This document shows positions 314 through 21,527 of a DNA stretch of 22,775 nt, piece by piece. Source of the stretch: a virus; IMG/VR virus record IMGVR_UViG_3300045999_010421, positions 1-22,775 of that record, one strand, 5' to 3'. Numbering within the stretch: the first letter of the stretch is position 1; every line of letters begins with the position of its first letter. A model generated the notes under the pieces. That model made no database searches. It was not told the DNA's origin and saw only the letters and a list, made by a program, of their open reading frames with translations. The translations under genes and the position numbers were made by a program.

Positions 314-322
314 AATATTTAT
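314..322 (+). promoter_or_regulatory. AATATTTAT motif, putative phage promoter, 4 nt before ATG
   Basis: Nine-base motif directly after the terminator T-run and ending 4 bases before the ATG of the exported-protein gene. The terminator would block read-through, so this gene needs its own promoter and this is the only candidate space. Promoter function is inferred from recurrence (see findings). Confidence 0.55.
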
Positions 323-326
323 TGAT

Positions 327-1298
327 ATGAAAATAATTTTCAAAGTAGTATTTTTACTATGCTTAAGTTTAAATTGTTTTCCCCAATGCTTGGACTTTTT
401 TGGCAGGAATGTAGACTGCCCCACAGAAAATGACTCGCTCGCCGTATATAATAACTCATTAAAAATATATGAGTTTTATGAAAAAAATCCGGACTATATT
501 AAACTTAAATCGGTAAAATTAAGAACAAAACAAGATGTATTAAATTGTTTTTATAGTTTACAAGATGCCGTAAAAGAATTTAATGAAAGATTTGTTTTAA
601 GACAAAGAGTACTTAATGGTGAAAATCTTCCTAATGTACTATTACCAAGAAGTGGTAAAAATATTCCATTAAATGATTATTATGTATATGTGGATGAATA
701 TAGATTTTTTCAAAGAGAATTAGAAAACGGTATACTTAATACTAGCTCCCCATTCCCTATTTACGATGTTAGAATAGCGCCATTAATAATTAATTCATAT
801 GAAAATAGATATGGTAAAAATGAATTTAATGGAGATTATGTTAATATCGCTTTATATATCCCAGTTACAGTTAAACCATACAGACTATTAACTGAAGACG
901 AAAAAAAAGAACGAGAAATGATATTAAGCGGTGTAATTAGCCCTAATATAATAAAACCTAAAACTGTTGCTAAAAAAATAACACCACTTACCGAACTTAA
1001 GAGAATTACTAACGACACAACAGTATTACCAACAGCTAATATTGAATATACTTTACCTATAGTAGCCAAACAAACCCCAGGATTTACTTTAGTACCCGCT
1101 ATTGCTACCCCAGTATTCTTTGAAGGTAATGGATGGTTAATAGGGCATATGATTGGTAGGAAGTTTCGTAAATTTCAGCCCACAGATGAATTTTATTGGG
1201 CATTACCACAATCTATGAAAGACTTTTTAATGAATAATGAAGCTATTAGAGTGTATTTAGAATTAGTATACGGAAAATATTACGACGGAATATATTAA
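327..1298 (+). CDS. Exported protein of unknown function
   Basis: A 323-residue protein that I do not recognise. It starts with a Sec-type signal peptide: Lys at positions 2 and 6, a hydrophobic core FKVVFLLCLSLNCF, and probable cleavage near Gln20. The mature chain then begins with a cysteine-containing segment (CLDFFGRNVDC). The Cys at position 17 does not have a good lipobox (SLNC), so signal peptidase I processing is more likely than lipidation. The rest is rich in Tyr, Asn and charged residues with no evident membrane segment. The start is the first ATG after the terminator, with a promoter-like motif 4 bases upstream. Its 3' end overlaps the convergent L,D-transpeptidase gene by 4 bases. 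An envelope or periplasmic role is likely from the leader and neighbours, but no function can be assigned. Confidence 0.8.
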   Translation: MKIIFKVVFLLCLSLNCFPQCLDFFGRNVDCPTENDSLAVYNNSLKIYEFYEKNPDYIKLKSVKLRTKQDVLNCFYSLQDAVKEFNERFVLRQRVLNGENLPNVLLPRSGKNIPLNDYYVYVDEYRFFQRELENGILNTSSPFPIYDVRIAPLIINSYENRYGKNEFNGDYVNIALYIPVTVKPYRLLTEDEKKEREMILSGVISPNIIKPKTVAKKITPLTELKRITNDTTVLPTANIEYTLPIVAKQTPGFTLVPAIATPVFFEGNGWLIGHMIGRKFRKFQPTDEFYWALPQSMKDFLMNNEAIRVYLELVYGKYYDGIY

Positions 1299-1312
1299 TT
1301 AAAAATATATTC
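1288..1312. terminator. AT-rich inverted repeat over two convergent stop codons
   Basis: A perfect 8-bp inverted repeat (GAATATAT ... ATATATTC) with a 9-base loop spans the overlapping stop codons of the two converging genes. It could act as a weak bidirectional transcription end, but the stem is nearly all A-T, so this is tentative. Confidence 0.3.
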
Positions 1313-2026
1313 ACCATTTGAATTAATCCTATATACTAACTCAGATCCATTCGTACTAAAAATATCGTATCCTGTTTTTAAATTCTGCCAAAACGGATAA
1401 TTTTTATTTATTTGATATAAATCCAATTCATTATTTATCATCATGAATGGAAAAATATAAATTGGAATATTTAATTGTCCTGCATTTCGAGCGTACACAG
1501 CATAAAGATATAATTCTTTTATATCATTAGATATAGGTATACATCCAATTGTTGCACATTCACCATGAATGAATATATCACCACCTAATCTTCCTCGTGT
1601 ACCTAATATTGAATCTGATTTATTAGGATAACTTATTTTTAATGATAAGAAATATTGACTAGTAGGATTAAATGCACTTATATTATAAAATCCCTCTGGT
1701 ATTTGTTTATCTCCAACTGTTCGTTTTGGACCAAGAAGTCCAATATATAAACAAAAAGGATACCTAACTATAAGTTTATATCTAGTATCACTATCATTTT
1801 TACCATATATTTCTAAAAATCTTTCCTTTTTGTATGCTACTAATATAATATTAAGGTAATCTTTATCTATTCCTTTATTTTCTAGATCTTTAACAACACG
1901 ATCATTTTTTTCTTCAAACGCTATTTGAACGTGCTTAAATTTTTTCTGTTGAGTAAGAAAATCATCCGATGGGATAAAAAAGATAGTAGTAAATATCAAT
2001 ACTACAGTTGCGATTATTTGTCTCAT
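1295..2026 (-). CDS. L,D-transpeptidase, YafK/DpaA-like (YkuD superfamily)
   Basis: 243 residues. A short hydrophobic N-terminus (residues 3-18) predicts export to the periplasm. Residues 99-114 (GPKRTVGDKQIPEGFY) and the catalytic block around 152-163 (FIHGECATIGC) match the YafK subgroup of L,D-transpeptidases. His154 and Cys162 are the expected active-site pair, in the HG...xxGC arrangement. Family members form or cut 3-3 peptidoglycan links; E. coli YafK (DpaA) cuts the bond between murein and Braun's lipoprotein. The catalytic residues are intact, so an active enzyme is likely; its substrate here is unknown. This is the only minus-strand gene in the window, converging on and overlapping the exported-protein gene by 4 bases. 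Its upstream region carries the same promoter-like motif as the phage genes, oriented to this gene, which argues that it belongs to the phage. Confidence 0.88.
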   Translation of the reverse strand: MRQIIATVVLIFTTIFFIPSDDFLTQQKKFKHVQIAFEEKNDRVVKDLENKGIDKDYLNIILVAYKKERFLEIYGKNDSDTRYKLIVRYPFCLYIGLLGPKRTVGDKQIPEGFYNISAFNPTSQYFLSLKISYPNKSDSILGTRGRLGGDIFIHGECATIGCIPISNDIKELYLYAVYARNAGQLNIPIYIFPFMMINNELDLYQINKNYPFWQNLKTGYDIFSTNGSELVYRINSNGEYIFN

Positions 2027-2064
2027 GGTTAATGATTTTTATCGCAACCTAATAGTGGTCTTAT

Positions 2065-2073
2065 ATAAATATT
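2065..2073 (-). promoter_or_regulatory. AATATTTAT motif on the minus strand, putative promoter of the L,D-transpeptidase gene
   Basis: Reads AATATTTAT on the minus strand (ATAAATATT on the plus strand), 38 bases before the ATG of the minus-strand gene. It is the only copy in this orientation with a minus-strand gene to serve, and so supports the motif being directional. Confidence 0.5.
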
Positions 2074-2114
2074 AATAATATCAACATATCATATGAAATT
2101 ATTGGTAAATCTAA

Positions 2115-2123
2115 AATATTTAT
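2115..2123 (+). promoter_or_regulatory. AATATTTAT motif, putative promoter of the T5orf172 gene
   Basis: Second motif of the divergent intergenic region, 27 bases before the plus-strand ATG at 2151. It lies 41 bases from the minus-strand copy and points the opposite way. Confidence 0.5.
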
Positions 2124-2150
2124 TTATATTCAATATAAAAAAATAAATAT

Positions 2151-2627
2151 ATGATGAAACGTGTATCTATTGAAGAATCTCAATATTATATTAAACTTCC
2201 CGCAGGTAAAGCTAAAAAAGCCGATGCCTTTACACTAATACCCGATGAAGATGGGTGGGAAAAAGTACAATACTTAGCTACAGCTATATTAGATCCTACA
2301 GGTGTTGTACGCCCTACTGAATATGTTTATGTATTAGTTAATAAATCCGTACCTAATATGGTTAAAATCGGTATGACTAAATCAACACCGGATGAAAGGG
2401 CACGTCAAATATCCGCATCTACAGGAGTAGCTACCCCATGGATTCCCGTATTTTGGTATGAATGTTATCGTTCAGATTTACTTGAAGTTGAAGTTCATGA
2501 ATATTTTCAAGAACATCGTGTTAACACACATCGTGAAATGTTTTCAATTGATTCATATACTGCTGAAAAAATTATAACTGAATTAGGGTACAAATATTCT
2601 ACTGCGCTATGGAAAGTAGGGGAGTGA
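2151..2627 (+). CDS. T5orf172 domain protein (GIY-YIG nuclease superfamily)
   Basis: 158 residues. After an N-terminal extension of about 55 residues come YVYVLVN (58-64), MVKIGMT (70-76), DERARQIS (81-88), then VEVHEYFQ (113-120) and HREMFSI (127-133). This pattern is that of the T5orf172/MUG113 family, a GIY-YIG-like nuclease fold named after a phage T5 protein and frequent in phages. The tyrosines, the Arg near 83 and the Glu near 129 would be the catalytic set; activity is not proven. The biological role is uncertain and could involve DNA metabolism, host-genome attack or mobility. Two ATGs sit in tandem at 2151 and 2154, and either could be used. It has its own promoter-like motif and is followed by another one before the next gene. 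Confidence 0.8.
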   Translation: MMKRVSIEESQYYIKLPAGKAKKADAFTLIPDEDGWEKVQYLATAILDPTGVVRPTEYVYVLVNKSVPNMVKIGMTKSTPDERARQISASTGVATPWIPVFWYECYRSDLLEVEVHEYFQEHRVNTHREMFSIDSYTAEKIITELGYKYSTALWKVGE

Positions 2628-2635
2628 TATTTTTT

Positions 2636-2644
2636 AATATTTAT
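2636..2644 (+). promoter_or_regulatory. AATATTTAT motif, 4 nt before a GTG start
   Basis: The spacing of 4 bases to GTG at 2649 equals that seen before three ATG-started genes. The motif therefore also supports GTG 2649 as the true start; the ATG two bases earlier is followed immediately by a stop. Confidence 0.55.
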
Positions 2645-2648
2645 TAAT

Positions 2649-3170
2649 GTGAAATCATATAAGATTAAATTAGAAGACAAAGCTGCGTTTTTAAATCGCT
2701 TAAAAGAAGCTGGTGTAAAAGCTAGTAGCTATGAGATTAAAGATGATACTTTAAATAAACCCCACTCATTCACAATTACTTTTTCTAATCCTGAAGATGA
2801 AGAGAAAGCAAAAACTATATTAAAGCAATCCCCTAAAATAAATCAATTAAAAGAAATGAAAACATTAAGAGAGCAATTAACCGTAATAGTTCGTGAAGAA
2901 TTAGCTAAAGCTAAAACTGCTAAAAAACAAAAACTTGACGAATTATCTCCTGAATTTATATCGGCTGCCCAAGGAGTAGGAGCTGTAGCAGGCGTTTTTG
3001 GAGCTGCAGCAGCAATTGTAAAAGCAGGTATGGCTAAAATAAAAAGTGATTTAAAGAAAGAAAACCCAGAAATGAGCGAAAAAGAAGCTGAAGAAAGAGC
3101 AGGTGATATATTAAAAGGCTCTGTAGATAAAACTCTTGGAAAGAATGTAGATATGGATAGGTGGCAGTAA
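2649..3170 (+). CDS. Small phage protein of unknown function with Gly/Ala-rich helix
   Basis: 173 residues starting at GTG, with no usable ATG nearby. Residues 1-60 look like a small alpha/beta domain (KIKLEDKAAFLNRLKEAGVK ..., then a strand-like HSFTITFS). A charged helix VIVREELAKAKTAKKQK follows at about 80-96. A Gly/Ala-rich hydrophobic stretch (about 107-127, GVGAVAGVFGAAAAIV) could insert in or lie on a membrane. The C-terminal tail is charged and helical (EKEAEERAGDIL). I do not recognise the family. It is flanked by its own promoter-like motif upstream and a strong terminator downstream, so it appears to be a separate transcription unit. A structural or membrane-active role is possible but unsupported. 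Confidence 0.7.
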   Translation: MKSYKIKLEDKAAFLNRLKEAGVKASSYEIKDDTLNKPHSFTITFSNPEDEEKAKTILKQSPKINQLKEMKTLREQLTVIVREELAKAKTAKKQKLDELSPEFISAAQGVGAVAGVFGAAAAIVKAGMAKIKSDLKKENPEMSEKEAEERAGDILKGSVDKTLGKNVDMDRWQ

Positions 3171-3194
3171 AAAGATATTATATATTACTTAAAT

Positions 3195-3225
3195 AGGACG
3201 TCTTTAAAAGATGTCCTTTTTTTTT
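3195..3225 (+). terminator. Rho-independent terminator
   Basis: A 10-bp stem (AGGACGTCTT / AAGATGTCCT, one G-T pair, loop TAA) is followed by T's up to 3225 with no interruption. It lies 24 bases after the stop codon at 3170. Confidence 0.93.
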
Positions 3226-3257
3226 GGAAATATAAAATTTTTTTCATAGCTTCAAAA

Positions 3258-3265
3258 TACATTTG
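3258..3265 (+). promoter_or_regulatory. Possible Bacteroidota-type -7 element (TACATTTG)
   Basis: Matches TAnnTTTG, the known -7 consensus of primary-sigma promoters in Bacteroidota, in the gap just after the terminator. No TTG at the usual -33 distance is seen, so the call is weak. If real, it would give a host-RNA-polymerase transcript through the purine-rich leader into the small genes. Confidence 0.2.
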
Positions 3266-3269
3266 GTTT

Positions 3270-3323
3270 GAAAAGGTGAGGGAAAAGAAAATGGGGAAAT
3301 GAAATTAATGGAATGGAAAGAAG
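3270..3323 (+). other. Purine-rich, C-free intergenic tract
   Basis: Of 54 bases, by my count 28 are A, 19 G, 7 T and none C, including GAGGG and GGGG runs. No reading frame of note crosses it. The strand asymmetry contrasts with the AT-balanced surroundings. It could be an untranslated leader, a protein-binding site or a replication-related element; no function can be assigned. Confidence 0.5.
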
Positions 3324-3325
3324 CG

Positions 3326-3334
3326 TATATTTAT
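3326..3334 (+). promoter_or_regulatory. TATATTTAT motif, 15 nt before ATG
   Basis: Variant with T first, upstream of the 66-residue gene. The region around it is all A/T (ATATTTATATATAA), so chance occurrence is more likely here than for the other copies. Confidence 0.4.
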
Positions 3335-3349
3335 ATATAAACATATATT

Positions 3350-3550: not shown

Positions 3551-3557
3551 TTAATTT

Positions 3558-3836: not shown

Positions 3837-3841
3837 GTTTG
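3834..3841 (+). promoter_or_regulatory. Possible Bacteroidota-type -7 element (TAAGTTTG) before the sigma gene
   Basis: Matches TAnnTTTG and overlaps the preceding stop codon, 50 bases upstream of the gp55-like start. No WATATTTAT copy is present in this gap. Transcription of a late sigma gene by host polymerase would make sense, but no clear -33 TTG is seen, so this is weak. Confidence 0.22.
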
Positions 3842-3891
3842 GTTTCGATATTTTCTGTTATTATATTCTTATTTAAACATTAAATATCATT

Positions 3892-4671
3892 ATGTCAATT
3901 TACTACGAAGAAGATAACCTCGATATATTTCTAGAAGATGCAACAATTGCACTAAACAAACGAGGTCAACCCCGCAAACGCAAACCCAAAGAACCCCGCG
4001 TTTATTTTACCACTGACACTGAGGAAGCTATAATTGAATATTTAGCCTCCCAGGATCAGGATTTCCGTAATCGAATTTACCAGGATCGTATTGAATATGC
4101 TTTCTATAAGTTAGCAGAAAATATTATCCATACATTTAAATTTTATTATACGGATTCAGATACAATTGAGGAGTTAAAGCATGAAGTTGTAACATTTCTA
4201 CTTGAAAAACTTCACTTATACGACCAGTCTAAAGGTAAAGCATATTCTTATTTTGGTACTATTGCTAAACGTTATCTTATAGTTTACAATAATAATAACT
4301 ATAAAAAACTCCAGGAACATGCTACTATAGAAGATATTGATGAAGATAAAAACATATTAAACGAAACTATTCGCGAATCAGAAGAAAAATCAGATCCCAA
4401 TACTTTTATTGATCAATATATTCGCTATATAGACAAATATTTGTATCAACTTTTCCCCAAATCTCAGGACGCTCGTACTGCCGATGCTATATTAGAATTA
4501 TTTCGTAAACGTGAAACGCTAGAAATATTTAATAAAAAAGCACTATACATTTATATTCGCGAGATAACAGATACATCAACTCCTCACATCACTAAGGTAA
4601 CTAAAAAGTTAGACACATTACGTACTCGTCTATTTAATGAATATTATAAACATGGGTATATAAAAATCTAA
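3892..4671 (+). CDS. gp55: gp55-like late-transcription sigma factor
   Basis: 259 residues. The core at about 58-140 resembles sigma region 2 as found in gp55-type factors of T4-like phages. It comprises FRNRIYQDRIEYAFYKLAEN, a helix with FKFYY, the segment IEELKHEVVTFLLEKLHLYD, and the signature KGKAYSYFGTIAKRYLI. Such factors direct host RNA polymerase to phage late promoters, with sliding-clamp and gp33 coactivation in T4. The N-terminus is basic (RGQPRKRKPKEPR). A C-terminal extension (about 195-259) includes a helix pair around YIREITDTSTPHITKVTKKL that looks like a helix-turn-helix; T4 gp55 (185 residues) lacks region 4. The likely targets are the WATATTTAT sites in this window, which is inference. 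The gene sits immediately before the late structural block. Confidence 0.72.
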   Translation: MSIYYEEDNLDIFLEDATIALNKRGQPRKRKPKEPRVYFTTDTEEAIIEYLASQDQDFRNRIYQDRIEYAFYKLAENIIHTFKFYYTDSDTIEELKHEVVTFLLEKLHLYDQSKGKAYSYFGTIAKRYLIVYNNNNYKKLQEHATIEDIDEDKNILNETIRESEEKSDPNTFIDQYIRYIDKYLYQLFPKSQDARTADAILELFRKRETLEIFNKKALYIYIREITDTSTPHITKVTKKLDTLRTRLFNEYYKHGYIKI

Positions 4672-4677
4672 GTATAT

Positions 4678-4686
4678 TATATTTAT
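4678..4686 (+). promoter_or_regulatory. TATATTTAT motif, 4 nt before ATG; head of the structural block
   Basis: Located between the sigma-factor gene and the ATG at 4691, with the same 4-base spacing as three other copies. It may be the first promoter of the long late operon. Confidence 0.55.
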
Positions 4687-4690: not shown

Positions 4691-5116
4691 ATGATAAAGT
4701 TAATAGATTTATTATATGAAGCTAAACAAGTAGGTACCTTATATCATTTTACAAGAACAGGAGAACTAATAGGTATACTTGAAAATAATATACTAAAAGC
4801 AAGTGATATGTGGGCTACTAATAAAGATTCTAGATCATTTAATGCTTTTACTAGGAATAAAAATGGATGGAATGTTGGTGGTTTTCCAACTGATGTAAGA
4901 ATATCTATAGATGGTGATAAATTGTCTAATAAGTATAAAATTCAACCTTTTAATATGGGATTTGAAGTTGATGAAATGGAAGAAAGAATTTATAAAGATA
5001 TTCCCAATATTAAAAACTATATTACAGACATAACAATCAATACTAAAACAAAAGGGAACTATGAGTGGCATAAAGATACCATTAATAAACTATATCCAGA
5101 AGTAAAAATAATATAA
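4691..5116 (+). CDS. Possible ADP-ribosyltransferase-fold phage protein with capsid-targeting-like leader
   Basis: 141 residues. Residues 17-36 (LYHFTRTGELIGILENNILK) resemble the first motif of DarT/ART-like folds (an H-[YF]-T followed by a GILxxxxL helix). There follow AFTR (52-55), VRISIDGDKLS (69-79) and an acidic EMEERIY (95-101) that could supply the catalytic Glu. If this reading is right, it would transfer ADP-ribose to a host protein or nucleic acid; this is inference from motif order only. The N-terminus, MIKLIDLLYE followed by Ala, resembles the capsid-targeting leaders of T4 internal proteins, which are cut after (I/L)xE. An almost identical leader recurs on the gene at 21847. The stop is one base from the next ATG, so it is co-transcribed with baseplate genes. 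Confidence 0.5.
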   Translation: MIKLIDLLYEAKQVGTLYHFTRTGELIGILENNILKASDMWATNKDSRSFNAFTRNKNGWNVGGFPTDVRISIDGDKLSNKYKIQPFNMGFEVDEMEERIYKDIPNIKNYITDITINTKTKGNYEWHKDTINKLYPEVKII

Positions 5117-5513: not shown

Positions 5514-6673
5514 GGATAAGAGAAAATTTAGGTGGATTAGTAGCTTCTACAAGTAAACTTACTCCATTATCTGCTACTAAACCTCAAATAGGTAAAGTAT
5601 ATGGTATAGTATTAGATCAAAATACTCCTTCAAAAGAATTATTTGAAAAAGTAGGGGGCTGGAATGGAATAGGTACTGTATTTTATTTAGATTATGAACA
5701 ATCAAAAAATATACCTATAGATCAAGTTAACCTAAGTACATGCAAAACTGCTAAACCTTTTTATTCTAGTATCCAGGATTATCCTTTAAAAGGAGAATTA
5801 ATTAGTATCATAGATGCTCCTTCTCCTACAAGTCAAATTAATAATAGTGCTGCTCAAAAATATTATACAGGTACTATTAATTTATGGAATAATAATCAAC
5901 AAAATTCTCTTACTGATGATGCTTTAGGTAAAACATTTACTGAAAAAGCAGACATTAGAAATTTATATTCATTTGAAGGTGATAGAATATATCAAGGTAG
6001 AAAAGGTAATGGAATTAGATTTGGTAGTACAGTAAAATTAAAATCAAATATTAATGAGTGGAGTAGTGTAGGAAAAGATGGAGATCCTATCACTATATTA
6101 GTGAATGGTTATATAACTACAGATACAGGTTCTTCTGTCCCTAACGTTGAAGAAATAAATAAAGAATTATCTTCAATTTATCTTACATCGACTCAAAAAC
6201 TCCCTTTAACACCTGGTTCTCTTATATTAAATCCTTTATATACTCCTATTCCTCCAAATAAATATTTTGAACCTCAAATTATATTAAATAGTGATCGACT
6301 TGTATTTAATTCTAAAAAAGATGATATATTGTTATATTCAAGCGGTTTTATTGAATTAAATACAGATAGTATTACTAATATAAATAGTGGAACATTAATT
6401 AATTTAAATTCTCCTATAATATGGTTAGGAGTAAAAAAAGATGGGACTGAACCTACTGAACCTTTGTTACTTGGAAATAAAGTAAAAGAGTTATTAAATT
6501 CACTATTATCTACATTAGAAACTCTAGGAAATAATCTATCTTCAGTAGTAGTTTCTCCTGAAGGATCTCCACTAGCCGGGGTAAATGTAGCAGGAGCTAG
6601 TTTAACAGAAAGTCTTTTAACACTCCATAAACAACTTAAAGATATAACATCTAATACTAATTTTACAGTATAA
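5510..6673 (+). CDS. gp5/VgrG-like baseplate hub spike protein without lysozyme domain
   Basis: 387 residues. Residues about 25-105 look like an OB-fold (GKVYGIVLDQNTPSKELFEKVGG, then GIGTVFYLDY, YPLKGELISIID). Next comes a segment GDRIYQGRKGNGIRFGSTV (157-175) and GDPITILVNG (191-200). Residues 253-308 (QIILNSDRLVFNSKKDDILL, IELNTDSITNINSGTLINLNS) have the short alternating strands expected of the triple-stranded beta-helix that forms the spike in T4 gp5 and VgrG proteins. The tail end is helical and Leu-rich. Known relatives sit at the centre of the baseplate and puncture the outer membrane. T4 gp5 carries a lysozyme between OB-fold and helix; none is seen here, while a free M15 peptidase is encoded a few genes downstream. 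Start by ATGA overlap; stop by TAATG overlap. Confidence 0.62.
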   Translation: MRIRENLGGLVASTSKLTPLSATKPQIGKVYGIVLDQNTPSKELFEKVGGWNGIGTVFYLDYEQSKNIPIDQVNLSTCKTAKPFYSSIQDYPLKGELISIIDAPSPTSQINNSAAQKYYTGTINLWNNNQQNSLTDDALGKTFTEKADIRNLYSFEGDRIYQGRKGNGIRFGSTVKLKSNINEWSSVGKDGDPITILVNGYITTDTGSSVPNVEEINKELSSIYLTSTQKLPLTPGSLILNPLYTPIPPNKYFEPQIILNSDRLVFNSKKDDILLYSSGFIELNTDSITNINSGTLINLNSPIIWLGVKKDGTEPTEPLLLGNKVKELLNSLLSTLETLGNNLSSVVVSPEGSPLAGVNVAGASLTESLLTLHKQLKDITSNTNFTV

Positions 6674-7905
6674 TGATAAATCCAAATAACATATCTTCAT
6701 TAACTAATCCAGATTTAATTTCTTTAGCTAAAAATCAACTTACCCAGCAACAGGATAAAATTAAACAAACTGTACTTACTAAAGCTGATAAATTACAAAA
6801 ACAATTAAAAGAATCTTTTTTAGAAAGAAAAAGAATAGATGATGAATATAATGAATTAATTAAAAAAGTACAAAGTGATAATTCTTTATCTGAAGAAGAT
6901 AAAGTAAATCAAATAAATAATTTACAAGAAAAAAGATTAAATGAAATTTCATTATTAGAAGAAAAAGAAAAAAAAGTTAAAGATGATATTTTTACTATAA
7001 ACAAAGATCCTTTAAAACAAATTAAAGAGGAAAAGAAAAAAATAGATCTTAAAATAAATAAAAGTATTAAAAAATCACAATCGGATCAAAAGAAAGCAAG
7101 TGTTACTAGAAGAAAACAAATAGCCCAAAATGTTAAAAAAACATTACCTGTTATAGTAATGTCTACTTTAGTACCAATTTTAATTAAGTTAACACAACAA
7201 AATAATAAATTACAAGAATTAGTAGATAAAACTAATGATTTTATTAGATCAGCTAATACTCCTGAAAAAATAAATCAGGCCCGTATATTAAGAAATACAG
7301 CCCTCAATATTATTAATTCCCAGGAACAAAAAATAATATCTATTAGAAATACACTTAAAAGAATTCAATCTATATTAAATGTATTTTCTACAATATTATC
7401 TATAATTAATGTAATACTTAATTTACCTTTACCTTTTTTAATAATAGGTCCTATAAAAGTTCGTTTACAACCTATTTTACAAAGAATATTAGCTATACTA
7501 AATAGTTTAACAGTAGTATTAGCTATAGTAATTCCTTTATTAGAATCTATAATAGCATATTTGGAAGATTTAAAAAGACAATTACTTGCTATTAATGATT
7601 TATTAGATACAATAGCATCTTCTAATATATCAAATTTAAATGATATATTAAATATAACAGAAGGAATAGGTGGAGAATTTGGTGCTATCACTTTTGAAGA
7701 ATATAAAGGATTTAAATTTGCATTAAAAGAGGAAAATAATCCTGATCGCAAGTTTACTATTAGAGGTAATAAACGCCACTATGCGGTAGCAATTGATCGT
7801 GATAATGTAGAAGTATTAAAAAGCGATTTATCATTTACATTAGATCCAAATGATTTGATAGAACAATTAAAATTAATAATAGATCAACGAAATTTACAAG
7901 CTTAA
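6673..7905 (+). CDS. Large coiled-coil and hydrophobic virion protein, unknown
   Basis: 410 residues. Residues 20-150 are a long, strongly charged coiled coil (KADKLQKQLKESFLERKRID, EEKEKKVKDD). A hydrophobic segment follows at about 158-173 and a longer one at about 237-300 (ILSIINVILNLPLPFLIIG, LTVVLAIVIPLLESIIAYLE). A C-terminal soluble domain (about 335-410) contains FKFALKEEN, RGNKRHYAVAIDRDN and SFTLDPNDLIEQLKL. The combination of coiled coil, apolar helices and position beside the spike recalls tape-measure or hub proteins. It is short for a full tape measure and no family is recognised. It could be a hub-associated factor that helps open the inner membrane. It starts on the last base of the previous stop (TAATG), indicating coupled translation. 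Confidence 0.65.
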   Translation: MINPNNISSLTNPDLISLAKNQLTQQQDKIKQTVLTKADKLQKQLKESFLERKRIDDEYNELIKKVQSDNSLSEEDKVNQINNLQEKRLNEISLLEEKEKKVKDDIFTINKDPLKQIKEEKKKIDLKINKSIKKSQSDQKKASVTRRKQIAQNVKKTLPVIVMSTLVPILIKLTQQNNKLQELVDKTNDFIRSANTPEKINQARILRNTALNIINSQEQKIISIRNTLKRIQSILNVFSTILSIINVILNLPLPFLIIGPIKVRLQPILQRILAILNSLTVVLAIVIPLLESIIAYLEDLKRQLLAINDLLDTIASSNISNLNDILNITEGIGGEFGAITFEEYKGFKFALKEENNPDRKFTIRGNKRHYAVAIDRDNVEVLKSDLSFTLDPNDLIEQLKLIIDQRNLQA

Positions 7906-7913
7906 ATATTTAT
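7905..7913 (+). promoter_or_regulatory. AATATTTAT motif, 4 nt before ATG of the gene preceding gp25
   Basis: It begins on the last base of the preceding stop codon and ends 4 bases before the ATG at 7918. It may be an internal late promoter for the gp25-gp6 group. Confidence 0.55.
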
Positions 7914-7917: not shown

Positions 7918-8277
7918 ATGAATGTTAAATTATTTAAAAAATTAATTAAAGAAGCGGTAACCGAGGCTATTTATGAAGAATTGCCTGATATTATCAACGA
8001 AGCATTAGCTAAACAAAATAAACAACCATTACGTGAAAATAAATCATTTAATTTCACTAGTGCTGATGTAGTTCCATTACCCGGGGATGTACGTAGTTCG
8101 TTAATGGCTAAAATGGGTGCTGAATTTGGTTTTCAACCACCTACTCCACAATTAAAAGTAATTGATGAAATTGATGAAACAACTGGAGAAAAAGTAAACC
8201 CATATTTAGCTTTTATAGCCGATGCAGCTAACAATATGACTCCAATGGATAAATCAGGTTTAAGAAATTTAGATTAA
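7918..8277 (+). CDS. Small conserved virion-module protein upstream of gp25
   Basis: 119 residues. An amphipathic, acidic N-terminal helix (LFKKLIKEAVTEAIYEELPD, then IINEALAKQN) is followed by a Pro-rich segment with VVPLPGDVRSSLMAKMG, FGFQPPTPQ and a tail AFIADAANNMTPMDKSGLRN. There is no known domain. The N-terminus contains several (I/L)xE sites (IKE, IYE, INE) of the kind T4-type prohead protease cuts, but these also arise naturally in acidic helices. The gene ends one base before the gp25-like start, so it is probably a baseplate assembly or capsid-associated factor. The function is unknown. Confidence 0.65.
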   Translation: MNVKLFKKLIKEAVTEAIYEELPDIINEALAKQNKQPLRENKSFNFTSADVVPLPGDVRSSLMAKMGAEFGFQPPTPQLKVIDEIDETTGEKVNPYLAFIADAANNMTPMDKSGLRNLD

Positions 8278-8278
8278 C

Positions 8279-8695
8279 ATGCCCATACCCCAAACAATAC
8301 GTGTCAATCCATTAGATTTGCAAAAAAATATTGCAATTGGGGTATCTTTACCATTTAATGGCCCTGCAGGACCATTTAATAAAACATATAGTACTAAAGA
8401 TCAAATTAAATATAATTTAATCAATCTTTTACTTACAAATAAGGGTGAAAGAGTATTCAACCCTGAATTTGGAGCTGATTTAAAAAGAATACTATTTGAA
8501 GGTATAGTAGAAGATATATCGTCTACAATACAAAATTTAATTATTACTAATGTTAATATCTTTATTCCTGAGGTACAAGTAACAGATGTAGTAGTAAATA
8601 CTGATAATAAAGAAAAAAATAGTATTGCTGTAACAGTTGTATACCAATTAAGAATATCAGGAACTTCTGATCAAATAACCGTAGAATTTATATAA
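8279..8695 (+). CDS. gp25: Baseplate wedge protein, GPW/gp25 family
   Basis: 138 residues, close to the T4 gp25 length. It has the family signature: DQIKYNLINLLLTNKGERVF (about 41-60), then NPEFGADLKRILFE. A C-terminal beta region (VQVTDVVVNT, SIAVTVVYQLRISG) folds like lysozyme-related gp25/TssE. In T4-like phages and type VI systems gp25 sits at the junction of the baseplate wedge core and the first sheath ring. It is needed to trigger sheath polymerisation. The N-terminal 35 residues hold the conserved Pro/Gly-rich stretch (GVSLPFNGPAGPFNKTYST). It is one base apart from both neighbours; the order gp25 then gp6 is conserved in contractile systems and fixes the identity of the module. Confidence 0.93.
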   Translation: MPIPQTIRVNPLDLQKNIAIGVSLPFNGPAGPFNKTYSTKDQIKYNLINLLLTNKGERVFNPEFGADLKRILFEGIVEDISSTIQNLIITNVNIFIPEVQVTDVVVNTDNKEKNSIAVTVVYQLRISGTSDQITVEFI

Positions 8696-8696
8696 A

Positions 8697-10541
8697 ATGG
8701 CAGATAATAAAGTATCATATTTAAATAGAACATTTAGTGATTTCAAGGCTAACCTTATAAATTATACTAAAACCTATTTTCCCACTGTATATAATGATTT
8801 TTCAGATGCTAATCCTGGGGCTATATTCATTGAACTAGCAGCATATGTTGGAGATGTTACTTCATTCTATACTGATACTCAAATTCAAGAAAATTTTCTA
8901 TTATATGCTAAAGAAAAAGAAAATTTATATGCTTTATCTTATGTATTAGGGTATCGTCCTAAAGTATCATATGCTGCTAATGTTGTAGTTGATATATTTC
9001 AACTAATTCCTTCTATATCAAATGTAGGTAGTACTATACCTGACTATAGTTATGCCTTAATAATTCCTGAAAATACAGTACTTACTTCTGCTAGTACTGG
9101 TATTAAATTTTTAACTATAGATAAAGTAGATTTTTCTGATACAACTGATACTGAAATAACATTTGTAGATGCTAATTATTTTTTATTAAAAAAACAAGTT
9201 AAAGCAATATCGGCTGAAATTAAATCTACAACATTAAACTTTAGTACACCAACAAAATTTCAAATAGCTACTATTACTGATACTAATATGTTACAGATAT
9301 TAGATGCTACTGATACTCAGGGAAATAAATGGTATGAAGTTCCATATTTGGCTCAAAATACTGTTTTTGATAAAATTGCTAATCCCTCTTATTCAAGTGA
9401 TGGTGTTCCTTATTTATTTAGATTAAAAAGAGTACCTCGTCGTTATGTATCTAGATTTTTAACTGATGGAACATTACAATTAGAATTTGGAGCTGGCTTA
9501 TCTAATACATCTGATTCAACCTTATTACCCAACCCTGATAATGTACAATTAGGATTAGTACCTGGTATATCTAATTTATTGGATGGTTATAATAAAGCTA
9601 ATGCCTTTTTTACTCAAGAATATGGTTTAGCCCCAAGTAATAATATTACTATCAGATATCTTGTAGGAGGTGGAATAACATCAAATATACCTAGTAATGA
9701 TTTGACTACTATAGATTCAGCAGGAGTAAGCTTTGCCAATAATAGTACAACAGGGCCCTTAGCAGATCAAATTAAAGCAAGTATAGCTTCCACTAATCCT
9801 TCCCCAGCAGCTGGTGGTAGAAATGGGGATGAAATAGAAGAAATTCGCAACAACGCACTATATGCATATCAGTCCCAATTACGCGCTGTAACTAGAGAAG
9901 ATTATATGATAAGAGCATTATCATTACCTGCAGAATATGGAAGTATAGCTAAAGTATACGTTACACAAGATATGGCTAGTGAAGTATTACCTACACCAAC
10001 GGTAGCAACAACTGAAGAAAGAAATCCACTTTCATTAGACATGTACATACTAGCTTATAATTCCAATAAAAAATTAATTACAGCTGCTACTACATTAAAA
10101 GAAAATTTAGCAGCTTATATTAATCAATATAGAATGGTTACAGATGCTGTTAATATTAAAGATGCATTTTATATTAATATAGGTATTAATTTTGATATAG
10201 TAGTACAAAGTGGATATAATAATAATGAAGTTTTAACTAATTGTATACTTGCTATACAAAATTATTTTGATATATCTAGGTGGACTATAAATCAACCTAT
10301 TATATTATCTGATATTAGTTCTCTTTTAATAGATTGTAAAATAAAAGGTGTCCAATCTGTATCTAAAATTGAAGTAATTAATAAACAAGACAATACAGGA
10401 GTTACTTATTCTCCATATGCCTATGATATTAAAGGAGCTACAAAACAAGGAGTAATATATCCTTCATTAGATCCAAGCATATTTGAAGTTAGGTACCCTA
10501 ATACAGACATACAAGGTAGAGTAGTACCATTTGTTATATAA
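8697..10541 (+). CDS. gp6: Baseplate wedge protein gp6-like (baseplate J)
   Basis: 614 residues against 660 in T4 gp6. The N-terminal region (about 5-100) is typical of gp6: YLNRTFSDFKANLINYTKTY, DANPGAIFIELAAYVGDVTS, then ENFLLYAKEKENLYALSYVL and LGYRP. A central beta-rich insert includes RRYVSRFLTDGTLQLEFGAG. The baseplate-J core appears around 390-420 with AVTREDYMIRALSLPAEYGS followed by IAKVYV. The C-terminal third carries the dimerising segment ending near FEVRYPNTDIQGRV. In T4, gp6 dimers form the continuous inner ring that joins the wedges and drives baseplate rearrangement. It begins one base after the gp25 stop, so stoichiometric co-expression is likely. Confidence 0.92.
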   Translation: MADNKVSYLNRTFSDFKANLINYTKTYFPTVYNDFSDANPGAIFIELAAYVGDVTSFYTDTQIQENFLLYAKEKENLYALSYVLGYRPKVSYAANVVVDIFQLIPSISNVGSTIPDYSYALIIPENTVLTSASTGIKFLTIDKVDFSDTTDTEITFVDANYFLLKKQVKAISAEIKSTTLNFSTPTKFQIATITDTNMLQILDATDTQGNKWYEVPYLAQNTVFDKIANPSYSSDGVPYLFRLKRVPRRYVSRFLTDGTLQLEFGAGLSNTSDSTLLPNPDNVQLGLVPGISNLLDGYNKANAFFTQEYGLAPSNNITIRYLVGGGITSNIPSNDLTTIDSAGVSFANNSTTGPLADQIKASIASTNPSPAAGGRNGDEIEEIRNNALYAYQSQLRAVTREDYMIRALSLPAEYGSIAKVYVTQDMASEVLPTPTVATTEERNPLSLDMYILAYNSNKKLITAATTLKENLAAYINQYRMVTDAVNIKDAFYINIGINFDIVVQSGYNNNEVLTNCILAIQNYFDISRWTINQPIILSDISSLLIDCKIKGVQSVSKIEVINKQDNTGVTYSPYAYDIKGATKQGVIYPSLDPSIFEVRYPNTDIQGRVVPFVI

Positions 10542-11076: not shown

Positions 11077-11085
11077 GATATTTAT
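11077..11085 (+). promoter_or_regulatory. GATATTTAT motif, 20 nt before ATG
   Basis: The one intergenic copy with G in the first position, in the 37-base gap between the peptidase and the next virion gene. An identical nonamer also occurs inside a coding sequence near 16137, so chance is possible. Confidence 0.4.
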
Positions 11086-11105
11086 ATGTAGTAATCATGT
11101 AAATT

Positions 11106-15500: not shown

Positions 15501-16532
15501 AAAATAGGTTTATTTACTCAAATAGAATCTAGCTCATATTTACCGTTTAGAAATAATGTAGCTATAAAATATCTTGTAGATGAATTTGGAAATTTAACAG
15601 AATTAAACCAACGCAATAAACGTTGGCAAGAAGTGCAAAATACATTTATTGCTGGGGATTATTTAAATGTATCTTTATTTGATAATAAAAAATATTCTAA
15701 TCAAAAATTTACTGATGGTAATAAATTAATATTTGATAGTGGATATTTGTATTCTCCCATTTTATATTTTGCTTCATGTAGTAAAGATCCTAATTTGTAT
15801 TTCCAAAGTACAGGACAACCAAGTGCTTATACTGCTAGAGCAAGAAATAGTCTATCACCAAATGGAAATATTAGTGGTAGTAGTGGTACATTAGGATATC
15901 CAATAAGTGCATCATATATAATGAATATATTTGATCAAGTAATTGAAGGATCTACTATATATGCTGGTGGTACCCCAACAACTTTTCCATCATACTCAGT
16001 CCAAGAATCAGCTGCTCATAAAATAGAAGTTAGTTTACCTGTTACTTGGACTATACCACTTTCATCACCATATAGTGCTAGTGTAGCATTACAAACCTTT
16101 GTAAGTAGTTCCACTGGAATTACATTATTAGCACAGGATATTTATCAATTTACAGGATATCCATCTGCTGTAACTTTATCTTTAATTGATTATTCAATAG
16201 GGCGTTTTATTTTTACTTTATCTAACCCTATGCCAGTAGATATTGTTATTAATACAGCTAATGTTTATGGAAGTATTAGTACTGCTAATTGCAACATAGC
16301 TGATGAAAGTGATAATTTAACTCTTGGTATTATCCCTGCAGGAGTAACATATATTGAATTAATAGGAAATAGTGCTATGGGATGTAGTGTAAATAGATAT
16401 CTAATTCAAAATCAAATAGGAATTCAAGGAATAGCAGGAACTTTAAATAGTGGAGATACATTTTCTATAGGACCCACTACAGTAACAATTTTTATAAATA
16501 CTAATTGTAATACAAGCTATGCTTGTTCATAA
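12552..16532 (+). CDS. Very large baseplate structural protein (gp7-like position)
   Basis: 1326 residues, the largest product here; T4 gp7, the wedge initiator, has 1032. The N-terminal part (1-250) holds SRYSEEDIKLIPSRKLQENF, GDYIEYYVYDAGENLL and YLSGEFVTRYTFFKSIL. A central segment near 558-600 (ELYKRIYHNLPLLVKTKGTV, then HLMTIFGIP) is a conserved 'long-protein' motif I recall from other myovirus wedge proteins. A further region at about 755-800 includes FDNALFKMLNDFVPERTSLS. The last 190 residues are Ser/Thr-rich beta-sandwich modules with scattered Cys (TANCNIADESDN, NTNCNTSYACS), which look like an added surface domain. Position after gp6 and before fibre genes supports a wedge backbone role; the gp7 equivalence is inference. 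Confidence 0.62.
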   Translation: MADNIKIVGNITNTTTVSRYSEEDIKLIPSRKLQENFGGTGDYIEYYVYDAGENLLNTNYNYLSYKLPANIGLIPGVSNPPNTTGEIQTTNVGIDSTLATPTSSLYPIIEIDPIKDLQDLGYLSGEFVTRYTFFKSILSDFTDEALFIKEISPDRTELRLASITLTNEEIDSSITALIEEINNSTYYVDYLLNFGDNRQILGINVALNKEAEGYEVLVKLYEPLSLDIQEKDTLWIVEEKVSPYVFDINLDKLITPAPPPKLKGPNFDIEISTNQGTVSTPYINYEGALFSLQSLQNSSYQQILNLLATQSVDINIDYSDFDNFVFFGSAYQRVNNFYNKVKEIEDYNTLISTYTPSVGSIPNLQTEINKASASINNIISQFDGFEYYLYFENTSNLTSSVQYSITPYPKSGSLKPFSLLSTGSVSASVWFNWATTNALDYDNNNYDNLEFAVPPFLGDSGDNQPFFLFLNMVGHYFDNIWIYLKSITDLNLANNNLEVGISRDLVYSQLKSLGLHLYNSQAGESVDQFLIGANTGSSTWDNNTTITGSYLNNIPRKDLVSELYKRIYHNLPLLVKTKGTVAGLDHLMTIFGIPNQTYYTIGSESFYTPTGSSVTSSILNVKEFGGSLKSNLINGYNNDKVRIVPNSIVSNTVYSGSVLSPLLSLQTFPTSSNNFRENDMHYIDISFSPETQMDTYISGAIASNNPTWSLDDYIGDPRQQYSSSYPDLDAQRKLYFETGVPGFAPFTASLLDYNGFIRLIQYFDNALFKMLNDFVPERTSLSTGITINSPVLERNKVAYSIPYVATQSVYEAEYDLIDIEPQYGSLYNALQGDKKPFFTGEISGSVIDINQYFEDDFNPYDGDWNVWNSQNSLFPDRQINLNTFLHSDWNVLLNNVSKSVVSRVRRDIEYIWGTTGSITYPAELQDSYLSLRSYNTSRYEGSKTTSLLYNTYTSASYTGSDGFTIVTGDKSFGKTAAIDHTVRKIGLFTQIESSSYLPFRNNVAIKYLVDEFGNLTELNQRNKRWQEVQNTFIAGDYLNVSLFDNKKYSNQKFTDGNKLIFDSGYLYSPILYFASCSKDPNLYFQSTGQPSAYTARARNSLSPNGNISGSSGTLGYPISASYIMNIFDQVIEGSTIYAGGTPTTFPSYSVQESAAHKIEVSLPVTWTIPLSSPYSASVALQTFVSSSTGITLLAQDIYQFTGYPSAVTLSLIDYSIGRFIFTLSNPMPVDIVINTANVYGSISTANCNIADESDNLTLGIIPAGVTYIELIGNSAMGCSVNRYLIQNQIGIQGIAGTLNSGDTFSIGPTTVTIFINTNCNTSYACS

Positions 16533-17266: not shown

Positions 17267-17283
17267 TAATTTTTAAATTTTAA

Positions 17284-17292
17284 TATATTTAT
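17284..17292 (+). promoter_or_regulatory. TATATTTAT motif, 24 nt before ATG
   Basis: Lies in the 50-base gap before the gene at 17317. It is followed by a short tandem repeat (three CAATAAA-type units at 17301-17317) that makes an unstructured A-rich leader just before the start codon. Confidence 0.45.
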
Positions 17293-17316
17293 AGTATATA
17301 CAATAAACAATAAACA

Positions 17317-17982: not shown

Positions 17983-18001
17983 TTTAAAATAAAATAACAA
18001 T

Positions 18002-18979
18002 ATGTCATTTTCAAGATACGCAACAGATGATTCAGTAATAAGCTCCGAAACCGTAGTTCGTGGAATGTGGACTGGTGATAATAATAGATTAACAAACTTT
18101 GTTACTGCTAGTGGATATACTGAATATTATTTAGATGTATATAATAATAATCCTGCTCTCTCTGGCTCTGAATTACAATTTGATATTCAATATGGTAATA
18201 TAAATGGATCAGGATCTGTTCCTATTAACCCAATTATTTCTGGATCTTCACCATCACGTATTGTTTATGGTCAATACCGAAATTTAGTGTATGGCACTGA
18301 AACCACAAATTTTAGTTTTGATGGTGGTACTACAACAGCTCAACAAATTTACGTAATTAATATTTCTAGGGCTAGATATAAACAAGCTATTTTACCTGGC
18401 TCATTTAATTTAACCTTAGGAAGCGGTAGTGCTACCATTCAATTAACTGATGATAGTAATACTACTTCATTAACACGTTTTATTGGTGAAAACAGGGTAT
18501 TTTATATTATTAGTGGAAGTAATGGTAATGCCTATACTGCTAGCGCCGCTACTGGCCCTTATTATGGAATAATGCTACCAGATATGGGATTTATTGTATT
18601 AGATGCTTCTGGGTCATTAAGGCCATATATAACTGCTGCTAGCCAGTCCGTAGCTATAGCTTCTAATAATCATCTAAACTTATATAGATCTATAGTATCT
18701 GGAAGTAATTTTACAGCACAATCTTCAGAAGTAGTATCATCACGTTATTTCTTTACACGTGTTAAAAATGGCGAATTCAATTATACAACAAATCCATCTA
18801 TTATAGATGCTAATGGCAACTTATTATATACTACATTAATTGATAATCCTCAAACATTTATCACTACAGTAGGTATGTATAATGATAATAACGAATTATT
18901 AGCTGTAGCTAAATTAAGTAAACCATTAGTTAAAGATTTTACAAAAGAAGCCTTAATTAGAATCAAATTAGACTATTAA
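18002..18979 (+). CDS. Virion/fibre protein with C-terminal module shared with the 101-residue protein downstream
   Basis: 325 residues. The start (MSFSRYATDDSVISSETVVR) is followed by a beta-rich domain (YTEYYLDVYNNN, ELQFDIQYGNI, INISRARYKQAILPGSFNLT). There is a Gly/Ser/Ala-rich middle (about 170-240), then a C-terminal module of about 85 residues. It reads FNYTTNPSI ... FITTVGMYNDNNELLAVAKL, then SKPLVKDFTKEAL and a final RIKLDY. The same module makes up most of the protein at 21534-21839, so the two are paralogues in this part. That module probably provides attachment to a shared partner. The function is unknown beyond a virion surface role inferred from context. Confidence 0.62.
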   Translation: MSFSRYATDDSVISSETVVRGMWTGDNNRLTNFVTASGYTEYYLDVYNNNPALSGSELQFDIQYGNINGSGSVPINPIISGSSPSRIVYGQYRNLVYGTETTNFSFDGGTTTAQQIYVINISRARYKQAILPGSFNLTLGSGSATIQLTDDSNTTSLTRFIGENRVFYIISGSNGNAYTASAATGPYYGIMLPDMGFIVLDASGSLRPYITAASQSVAIASNNHLNLYRSIVSGSNFTAQSSEVVSSRYFFTRVKNGEFNYTTNPSIIDANGNLLYTTLIDNPQTFITTVGMYNDNNELLAVAKLSKPLVKDFTKEALIRIKLDY

Positions 18980-18982
18980 TGC

Positions 18983-21520
18983 ATGTCCTCATTCAAAAAA
19001 TTAAACAAGGCAGACGTTACGACAGTAGACTACACCGCTAATAAACGATGGAATTTATTTTATACTTGTCCCTCTATTAGTAATGGTTATTTTAACATAT
19101 ATAAAGGTACCAATATAGATGGAGTTTTTTATCCCGATGATCCTTCTATAGATCCTGTTACTAATAACCAATATGAAAGATTAATATTTGATTCTATGAA
19201 TCATTTATTCTATCAATCATATAGTGGTAGTTTATTAGATACAGGTTCATTAATGTTTAATATAAACACATATGAATCTGCTTCACAACAACGCCCTACT
19301 AGCTCCTATTTTAATTATAATTCTAATCCTTTATTAATTAAACGATTCCCAACAGGATCAGGAAATGGAATAAGAGTAATATCTGTTGATCCTGATGTAT
19401 ATGGAGCTAAATTATTACCCCACAGTATTAATTTATCGTCATCTGCATATAATATAAAAGATGACGGATATGGAAATTTATATGATATATCTGGGGTAGG
19501 AGATGATTATATAGATTTATCCTATCTTACCGTAGCTACTGTTAATGGATATTTTGATGATTTAACCCCAGGGCAAGGGATACAATTTATAGGAAATGTA
19601 TTTTATGCTCATGGATTAATGGTAATTACTAATCCGGATTATCAAAATATATTTCCCCTCCCTCCCTTAGCTCTTAACGACTTATATTCTTTTGATCAAT
19701 ATGATTCACCAAAGAGTATGAGTATATTAAGTAATGATATTGCTAGAACAGGTATATTAGATACGGGTTCTGTAGTATTATATGGTAGTAATTCCCCCTT
19801 TTACACTATAAACGCTAACGGAACCGTTACATTAACTACTACAACCCCAGGGAATTATAATATATATTATACTGTTAATAGTCTTTATGGAAATGGATGT
19901 TCATTAACTAGTAATAAAGCTAAAATTAACGCTATCGTAACACCATCTCCATTTACTTGTTTTTATTATTTATTAGAAGCTAATGCTAGTCCTACTGTTT
20001 TTTCATTTAATGAATGTTCAACAGCTTCACCTACTACAATGACCCTAAACGATAAAACAATAGGGTATGTATGTGCTGAACAAAATTCAGTAACAGTAAC
20101 TCCTGAATCAGGTGTTATAACTCTTATAGGAAATTGCCCAGATAGAATGACTATTCAAGCTAGTAATTTGAATTCATTTACAGCTAGCTTTACCTTTAAT
20201 AATACTGGATATATGACAGTATATTGGGGAGACGGCACAGCAGATTCAGTTCCTTATAGTAGTAATACTCAATTACCTGCACATACTTATGGTAGTGCAT
20301 ACAATGGAGATATTATTATAGAAGCAACAGATTTATCTCATATTACTACATTTAATATACTGACAACTTATACTAATCCATCATCACCAATACCACTTGC
20401 TATTGCTGGGTCTGAGTTTGCTAAGTTAGATGGATTAGTAAATGTAAATATACGTAATGCTACTGTAACAGCTACAATTCCTCAATTAGCTCCTACTATT
20501 CAAAATTTAGAAATATGGCCTGCTAATATTAGTGGAACTACTACTCAGATTGGTAGTCATTTTACTAATAATATGAATAAAATATTTCTTCTTGAATTAA
20601 CTAATATAAGTGGAGATATTGATAATTTACCATCAACTCTTACTAATGTTCAAATATATGGTAATAATACTTTAACAGGAGATATAGCAAATATACCACC
20701 AAATTGTATTTTATTTGCTGTTATAGGTAAAAATACTTTATCAGGTTCATTAAAGAATTTACCAAATCCATCTTTTCTTACTACATTTAATGTACAAGGA
20801 TTAAATACTATATCTGGAGATATAGCAACATTCCCTACAAGTAGCCAATTAACTTTATTATCTATTACTGGCGATTCTGGAAGTGGATACAATGGCAATA
20901 CAATTTCGGGCAGTATAGATAATTGCACATGGAACGCTGGACTACAAGTATTCCAAATTAAAGGATCTAATACAATTTCGGGTAATATAGCAACTCTTTC
21001 TCCTTGCACTTCATTACAACAATTAATTGTAACTGGAGAAAATGTTAGTATTCCATCTGCAGGAAATACATTATCTGGTAGTCTAGCATCTCTATCTTCC
21101 AGTCTAAACATAGTATCTATTTCAGGTAAAAATACAATATCTGGTACTCTAGCAAATATATCTTCTCTTACTAATTTAACTTATTTTGAACTTAGTGGTC
21201 TTAATACTATATCAGGAGATGTTAAAGATATTCCTACTTCTGTAAGTTATATAAACATTCAAGGTAATAATACTATTAACACATATAGTGCAACTAGAGC
21301 TTTTCCTGGCACTATGTATAATCTTAGAATAACACCTACAGTTTTCCCTACAACAGATCTTGATAGGTTATTAACAGATACTAGTGGATCTAATTGGGCT
21401 GCATACCCAGATAAATTACCTAATTTAATCTTAAAAGGAACTTATACTGCAACTGCTGCTTATAATACATTATCTAGCAAAATAACATTAGCTGGAGGAA
21501 CTATAAGTATAACACCTTAA
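18983..21520 (+). CDS. Putative receptor-binding fibre with Ig-like, PKD-like and LRR-like repeat domains
   Basis: 845 residues in ordered modules. Residues 1-215 are a virion-attachment-type domain (FKKLNKADVTTVDYTANKRW, then LFYTCPSI). At about 228-318 there is an Ig/cadherin-like domain beginning ALNDLYSFDQ and including SILSNDIARTG. At about 320-385 there is a Cys-containing beta segment. At about 390-450 there is a PKD-like domain with VYWGDGTAD (413-421). From about 490 to 785 there are roughly ten LRR-like units of 22-32 residues, each starting NT[IL]SG and containing hydrophobic positions ending in IxG. The C-terminus (TTDLDRLLTDTSGSNWAA, then LKGTYTATAAYNTLSSKI) caps the solenoid. 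LRR and PKD modules bind proteins or glycans in other systems, so host recognition is the likely role (inference). It starts 3 bases after the previous stop. Confidence 0.62.
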   Translation: MSSFKKLNKADVTTVDYTANKRWNLFYTCPSISNGYFNIYKGTNIDGVFYPDDPSIDPVTNNQYERLIFDSMNHLFYQSYSGSLLDTGSLMFNINTYESASQQRPTSSYFNYNSNPLLIKRFPTGSGNGIRVISVDPDVYGAKLLPHSINLSSSAYNIKDDGYGNLYDISGVGDDYIDLSYLTVATVNGYFDDLTPGQGIQFIGNVFYAHGLMVITNPDYQNIFPLPPLALNDLYSFDQYDSPKSMSILSNDIARTGILDTGSVVLYGSNSPFYTINANGTVTLTTTTPGNYNIYYTVNSLYGNGCSLTSNKAKINAIVTPSPFTCFYYLLEANASPTVFSFNECSTASPTTMTLNDKTIGYVCAEQNSVTVTPESGVITLIGNCPDRMTIQASNLNSFTASFTFNNTGYMTVYWGDGTADSVPYSSNTQLPAHTYGSAYNGDIIIEATDLSHITTFNILTTYTNPSSPIPLAIAGSEFAKLDGLVNVNIRNATVTATIPQLAPTIQNLEIWPANISGTTTQIGSHFTNNMNKIFLLELTNISGDIDNLPSTLTNVQIYGNNTLTGDIANIPPNCILFAVIGKNTLSGSLKNLPNPSFLTTFNVQGLNTISGDIATFPTSSQLTLLSITGDSGSGYNGNTISGSIDNCTWNAGLQVFQIKGSNTISGNIATLSPCTSLQQLIVTGENVSIPSAGNTLSGSLASLSSSLNIVSISGKNTISGTLANISSLTNLTYFELSGLNTISGDVKDIPTSVSYINIQGNNTINTYSATRAFPGTMYNLRITPTVFPTTDLDRLLTDTSGSNWAAYPDKLPNLILKGTYTATAAYNTLSSKITLAGGTISITP
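20591..21330 (+). repeat. Protein-level LRR-like tandem repeats within the fibre gene
   Basis: About ten units, most opening with NTISG, NTLSG or NTLTG. The DNA copies share fragments such as AATACTATATCTGG, AATACAATTTCGGG and AATACATTATCTGG. DNA divergence between units is substantial, so the array is old rather than freshly duplicated, apart from short near-identical blocks (AATACAATTTCGGG occurs twice, near 20898 and 20970). Confidence 0.75.
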
Positions 21521-21527
21521 TATTTAT
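21519..21527 (+). promoter_or_regulatory. AATATTTAT motif, 6 nt before ATG
   Basis: Starts inside the stop codon of the fibre gene and ends 6 bases before the ATG at 21534. It would allow the last genes of the block to be transcribed independently of the 2.5-kb fibre gene. Confidence 0.5.

Follow-up and report, generated by a model that had tools for sequence, protein, structure and literature searches.

The nonamer WATATTTAT, found before ten genes of a 22.8-kb IMG/VR virus record (IMGVR_UViG_3300045999_010421; the window hereafter, meaning the whole stretch of DNA that was analysed), is very likely a late promoter, judging from its sequence and setting. More fully, it is probably a -10-type late-promoter box of this phage and of a large group of related phages, read by a phage sigma-like factor and giving rise to mRNAs of which a part are leaderless. 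The case is built on the orientation of the motif, its enrichment before genes, its strictness, its association with late genes, its bimodal spacing from start codons, an initiator signature, and its conservation among orthologues. The window has a G+C content of 29% and 25 called genes (24 plus-strand, one minus-strand). It was compared with nine large uncultivated relatives (G001-G009; ten genomes in all, approximately 0.9 Mb, with genes called by one script), which were recruited via the sigma-like gene in an IMG/VR scan with the sigma-like protein that found approximately 600 relatives. Judged by the baseplate and sigma-like proteins, Flavobacterium phage immuto and Microcystis phage Mel-JY01 are the nearest named relatives (40-50% identity).

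The copies of WATATTTAT at positions 314, 2065 (minus strand), 2115, 2636, 3326, 4678, 7905, 11077 (with G as its first base), 17284 and 21519 precede genes that start at 327, 2026 (minus strand), 2151, 2649, 3350, 4691, 7918, 11106, 17317 and 21534, respectively. All of these, with their orientations, had been reported in a first-pass annotation of the window and were confirmed, as were the exceptions that it listed: a copy within a gene at 16137 (GATATTTAT) and minus-strand copies at 6258 (given there as near 6260) and 2143. The total number of copies in the window is at chance level (11 on both strands versus a shuffle mean of 10.6), and because it is unremarkable, location and orientation were tested instead. 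The 822 nt of gene-upstream gaps in the window contain 11 gene-oriented copies of the 8-mer that follows W, ATATTTAT, versus a mean of 1.08 and a maximum of 6 in dinucleotide shuffles, none of 5,000 of which reached 11; the minus-strand copy at 2143 is counted among the 11 because it points across a divergent gap at the minus-strand gene. The proposed comparison with a shuffled background thus favours the motif in gaps. In the gene-upstream gaps of the ten genomes together, 241 gene-oriented copies were found versus 20.2 after shuffling (maximum 29 in 100 shuffles). Noncoding DNA (88 kb) has 259 gene-oriented and 16 reversed copies, compared with 64 and 54 in coding DNA (827 kb). With further related loci added, the gaps contain 492 gene-oriented and 38 reversed copies, making ATATTTAT the most strand-asymmetric of all 8-mers. 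Expectation-maximization refinement held at the exact 8-mer under a stringent threshold, so strictness was tested by explicit counts of one-mismatch variants: such variants are far rarer, the commonest gene-oriented one, changed at the last position, occurring 66 times versus 34 reversed, and the box is strictly kept. A literature search returned no published description of the motif, which is weak evidence of novelty since coverage of subscription papers was thin.

The motif is present in the gaps before 59 of 132 homologues of structural genes and only 3 of 81 genes of replication or metabolism; the latter group leaves out PhoH, which lies within the late cluster and is preceded by the motif in six of six cases. 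When genes reachable through short-gap operons are counted, with PhoH included, the figures are 112 of 123 and 35 of 86. Together with the orientation of the motif in gaps, this association with virion genes supports the view of the first-pass annotation that the motif is a gene-oriented late promoter. The major capsid gene was at one point taken for an exception (motif within 60 nt in none of six cases, and none within 260 nt), a candidate that was dropped: in the relatives examined, the scaffold-like gene that precedes it has the motif approximately 105-115 nt upstream. Unlike other late genes, this scaffold/major capsid operon (G001, G002, G003, G005, G007 and immuto) has a leader of approximately 100 nt after the motif, with hairpin-like segments and, mostly, AAGGA.

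A second class of gap sequence, CGTATATT, often with TTGG upstream, is located upstream of small genes and of one PolB gene, and almost never coincides with the late motif. This fits a putative early, host-type class, distinct from the late motif, which has no upstream element: TTGG is found upstream at 26 of 48 early-type sites versus 14 of 240 late sites. There is no -35 element or TTG signal at the late sites, and their positions -30 to -28 in the nine relatives show a weak enrichment of purines and G (38% G at -29 versus approximately 13% in the background). In gaps of the nine relatives (for example, genes 21-55 of G008), this early-type class has the layout TTTGGC, approximately 14 nt, TTCGTATATT. 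Gaps of immuto (L009-L012) contain an additional gene-oriented motif around TATTTAGGTA (15-20 versus 0-1) that the top motifs of the other genomes do not include.

These upstream elements bear on the possibility that WATATTTAT is a variant of the host promoter of Bacteroidota (TAnnTTTG at -7 and TTTG at -33), for which the host primary sigma factor would suffice, with no phage factor. The resemblance of TATATTTA to TAnnTTTG, the location of the -7 element of Flavobacterium johnsoniae at -12 to -5, 4-5 nt from the start site and with a weak -33 signal (PMC6847099), and the infection of Flavobacterium by an isolated relative are all in keeping with this possibility. However, the final G is missing, about half of the sites have A or some other base in place of the first T, gaps show no enrichment of TAnnTTTG itself (39 copies on the same strand versus 45 on the opposite strand), and the rarity of TTGG upstream of late sites and the near-confinement of the motif to late genes are also contrary to it. 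A host promoter is considered unlikely, and a late promoter read by a phage factor is preferred.

The distance from the end of the motif to the start codon is bimodal. Among the window, its relatives and the further loci, 103 sites have a distance of exactly 4 nt, compared with two at 3 nt and four at 5 nt; distances of 5-13 nt form a valley with few sites, and a broad second peak begins at 14 nt (14-19 nt). The 4-nt class amounts to approximately one-eighth of sites, and to 29 sites from 17 gene families in the ten genomes alone. To allow for the dependence among related sites, the count was repeated in the ten genomes with a single site for each gene family: 15 families have the 4-nt distance, none 3 or 5 nt and nine 5-13 nt, and most others have at least 14 nt. 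At 92% of the 196 leadered sites, A or G stands fifth after the motif, and G immediately precedes that position in 2%. Shine-Dalgarno sequences are present in two of 184 leadered genes. In the 4-nt class, the base before the start codon is a pyrimidine in 29 of 29 cases, versus 702 of 1166 (60%) for all starts. Since a purine occupies the fifth position after the motif in the leadered class, RNA should start 5 nt downstream of the motif, and mRNAs from genes with the 4-nt spacing should be leaderless. One fixed start site at this position would be the simplest reading of the spacing and the initiator signature, because it implies that genes of the 4-nt class are leaderless, that leaders of at least 10 nt are common, and that leaders of 1-9 nt are rare. 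A class of leaderless late mRNAs is thus a likely prediction from these two features; the 4-nt spacing class is absent from the first-pass annotation.

The same distances help to judge two explanations that involve no promoter. A translation-initiation or mRNA-stability element would account for the proximity of the motif to start codons and for one class at a fixed 4-nt spacing, whereas the other class lies from 14 to more than 100 nt away (as in the capsid operon), the purine is at a fixed distance from the motif rather than from the start codon, and the valley at 5-13 nt fits a start-site rule and not a ribosome-binding rule; such an element is very improbable. An RNA processing site, at which a phage or host nuclease would cut to produce the 5' ends of late mRNAs, is in keeping with the strict, AU-rich motif, and cutting could also yield leaderless ends. 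However, a purine at +1 following a base other than G is characteristic of transcription initiation, and a terminator-like hairpin stands immediately before the copy at 314, so that little transcript from upstream would be expected to reach it, leaving processing with barely any likelihood. Initiation of transcription at a fixed distance from the box is preferred to both.

Conservation is complete among orthologues of the small gene at 7918-8277: they (32-87% identity) have ATATTTAT 4 nt before the start codon in 48 of 48 cases, while the four spacer bases vary except that the last remains C or T; the immuto orthologue has ACTATTTAT at the same distance, and a gene of the 4-nt class is located at 81525 in immuto. 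At least 77 of the 80 orthologues of gene 5118 carry the motif, and in the window that gap is occupied by gene 4691-5116 with its own promoter of the 4-nt class. Mel-JY01 possesses the motif with no 4-nt class, and has Shine-Dalgarno sequences at 70 of 221 genes. On the single comparison that Mel-JY01 provides, the leaderless class appears to go with relatives that lack Shine-Dalgarno sequences.

According to the favoured mechanism, a phage-encoded sigma-like factor would redirect host RNA polymerase, which would open the DNA at W(-13)ATATTTAT(-5) without a -33 or -35 element and begin RNA synthesis 5 nt beyond the box, at a purine whose preceding base is not G. Most sites would thereby produce a short A-rich leader without a Shine-Dalgarno sequence, and at the fixed minority of sites where the motif is exactly 4 nt from the start codon, +1 would be the first base of the start codon, giving a leaderless late mRNA. 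The best candidate for the factor, and a plausible reader of the box, is the sigma-like protein encoded at 3892-4671 on the plus strand, which has weak sigma region-2 similarity and whose immuto counterpart is KNV73_gp118. It adjoins the tail operon and is conserved there, 8 of 19 members of its family have weak Sigma70_r2 matches, and the fold of its AlphaFold model matches mostly sigma factors. The motif is directly upstream of the gene in none of 80 orthologues.

Several findings weigh against this reading. The model of the sigma-like protein is of moderate quality (predicted local distance difference test score [pLDDT] 70.5, predicted template modelling score 0.41), and its fold matches are weak, the best having an E value of 0.15. 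Homology to T4 gp55 was not detected by hhalign (probability 1.4%) or by a PDB profile search. Thus, of the gp55-like cognate factor proposed in the first-pass annotation, the sigma-like character is retained on the strength of the weak region-2 and fold matches, while the relationship to gp55 and the link of the factor to the box are unproven. Queries with T4 gp33, gp45 and gp55 in phmmer gave no match in the relatives, although a small, diverged gp33 could escape such a search. A 484-kb relative, LR756508, has a homologue of the sigma-like protein yet no strand bias of ATATTTAT (21/16); T4 likewise has no such bias. Because the relatives were found via the sigma-like gene, the joint presence of gene and motif in them carries no independent weight. 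About half of the structural genes have no direct copy of the motif and would require read-through from upstream, and one of the ten sites in the window, at 17284, has T at its predicted +1.

The relatives also encode a sliding clamp with a PCNA fold (pLDDT 91.5) alongside PolB, gp44-like and gp62-like genes, and clamp-activated late transcription would be possible on this basis. The Pfam clamp model PF02916 had no match, but neither did it match in the controls, and gene order, blast and fold were used to look for the clamp. In immuto, the motif is present and the clamp was not found by blast; the window, for its part, is a fragment.

In the window, leaders of 0-2 nt are predicted for five of the ten sites, and the predicted +1 is a purine in nine. 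Four boxes on the plus strand are predicted to be leaderless, being located 4 nt before the start codon at which +1 would fall: 314-322 (ATG at 327), 2636-2644 (GTG at 2649), 4678-4686 (ATG at 4691) and 7905-7913 (ATG at 7918, the universally kept promoter of the small gene described above). The last is also the promoter from which the gp25-like and gp6-like baseplate wedge genes (8279-10541, plus strand) would be read. The plus-strand box at 21519-21527 lies 6 nt before ATG 21534, with a predicted +1 at 21532 and a 2-nt leader. Longer leaders are predicted for the other plus-strand boxes: 11 nt from +1 at 3339 for 3326-3334, which has the context CGTATATTTAT and is kept in 27 of 36 orthologues; 16 nt from +1 at 11090 for 11077-11085, which has G at -13 and is kept in 44 of 51 orthologues of gene 11106; and 23 nt from +1 at 2128 to ATG 2151 for 2115-2123, the position of which is not kept in orthologues. 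The plus-strand box at 17284-17292, with the sole non-purine +1 (T at 17297), has its motif kept in 10 of 10 orthologues of gene 17317. The minus-strand box at 2065-2073 serves gene 1295-2026, with a predicted +1 at 2060 (G) and a 34-nt leader. This gene, encoding a YkuD-type L,D-transpeptidase, is convergent with an orphan gene (327-1298), and the segment 280-2073, comprising the terminator-like hairpin, the leaderless promoter, the orphan gene, the transpeptidase gene and the minus-strand promoter of the latter, has the look of a cassette that was inserted. An M15/VanY-type peptidase is also encoded in the window.

The sequence MIKL begins 41 otherwise different proteins (4691-5116 and 21847-22773 in the window, and others in G001, G002, G003, G007 and G009), of which 33 have L/I/M-x-E at residues 8-10 (consensus MIKLLDILxE), versus 38 of 2,222 other proteins. 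These N-termini match the capsid-targeting sequence of T4, in which the prohead protease cuts at L/I-X-E (PMC9026906), and the MIKL proteins may, on this resemblance, be packaged in the capsid and injected. The product of gene 4691 has a sub-threshold match to ADP-ribosyltransferases, recalling T4 Alt.

Annotators could use the motif to mark late operons and place their 5' ends exactly in phages that are common, with hundreds of relatives in IMG/VR, yet have hardly been cultivated. For these phages, which do without Shine-Dalgarno sequences, the motif points to a conserved class of late mRNAs that would be leaderless, and one cultivated pair exists (immuto and Flavobacterium sp. LMO8). The motif also illustrates a route by which a T4-type late box may diverge. 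The balance tilts slightly towards a widespread lineage of the T4 superfamily that has a late sigma factor without detectable relation to gp55, a rewritten box (TATA-TT-TAT), and both leaderless and leadered late genes, forming two translation tracks set purely by the spacing from promoter to start codon.

The first-pass annotation had noted that the motif resembles the reverse complement of the T4 late box. That comparison is rejected because counting from the +1 of each box places the two on one strand and in a common register: the T4 box TATAAATA spans -13 to -6 and the present motif W(-13)ATATTTAT(-5). The motif matches the T4 box at -13, -12, -11, -10, -7 and -6 (six of eight positions), has TT in place of AA at -9/-8, and adds an invariant T at -5. 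The T4 consensus TATAAATA is not the gap signal here, with 29 copies on the same strand and 170 on the opposite strand, the latter overlapping the motif. The available part of one account of T4 late promoters describes TA at -13/-12, with nine sites having A at -13, and a -35 region that is not conserved (PMC2988020); like these promoters, the present motif is a strict AT-rich box one helical turn before +1, without a -35 element, before virion genes and with A tolerated at -13. In T4, TATAAATA-to-ATG distances are at least 13 nt, never 4, with Shine-Dalgarno sequences, unlike the predicted leaderless class here, and the candidate factor here differs in having no detectable gp55 homology. The motif is therefore functionally like a T4 late promoter without being classed as one, since the defining sequence is changed and the factor family is unproven. 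The same part of that account presents late boxes predicted in silico for other phages of the T4 superfamily, KVP40, 44RR, S-PM2 and Aeh1, with no mention there of a leaderless class; the Aeh1 box shows that positions can change, as they have here, but at -13/-12 rather than -9/-8 (PMC2988020). The sigma-ABfr promoters of Bacteroidota (TAnnTTTG/TTTG) have a similar position, 4-5 nt from +1 (PMC6847099), whereas the motif has no terminal G, no -33 signal and a distribution largely restricted to late genes. Leaderless transcripts are said to be frequent in phages (PMC5312081); approximately 3.7% of 5' untranslated regions in Bacteroides thetaiotaomicron are shorter than 10 nt (PMC7366714), and 87% of leaders in F. 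johnsoniae are longer than 10 nt (PMC6847099). What these phages share with known leaderless mRNAs is a start codon at the predicted 5' end; what sets them apart is a strict spacing from promoter to start codon that is kept orthologue by orthologue.

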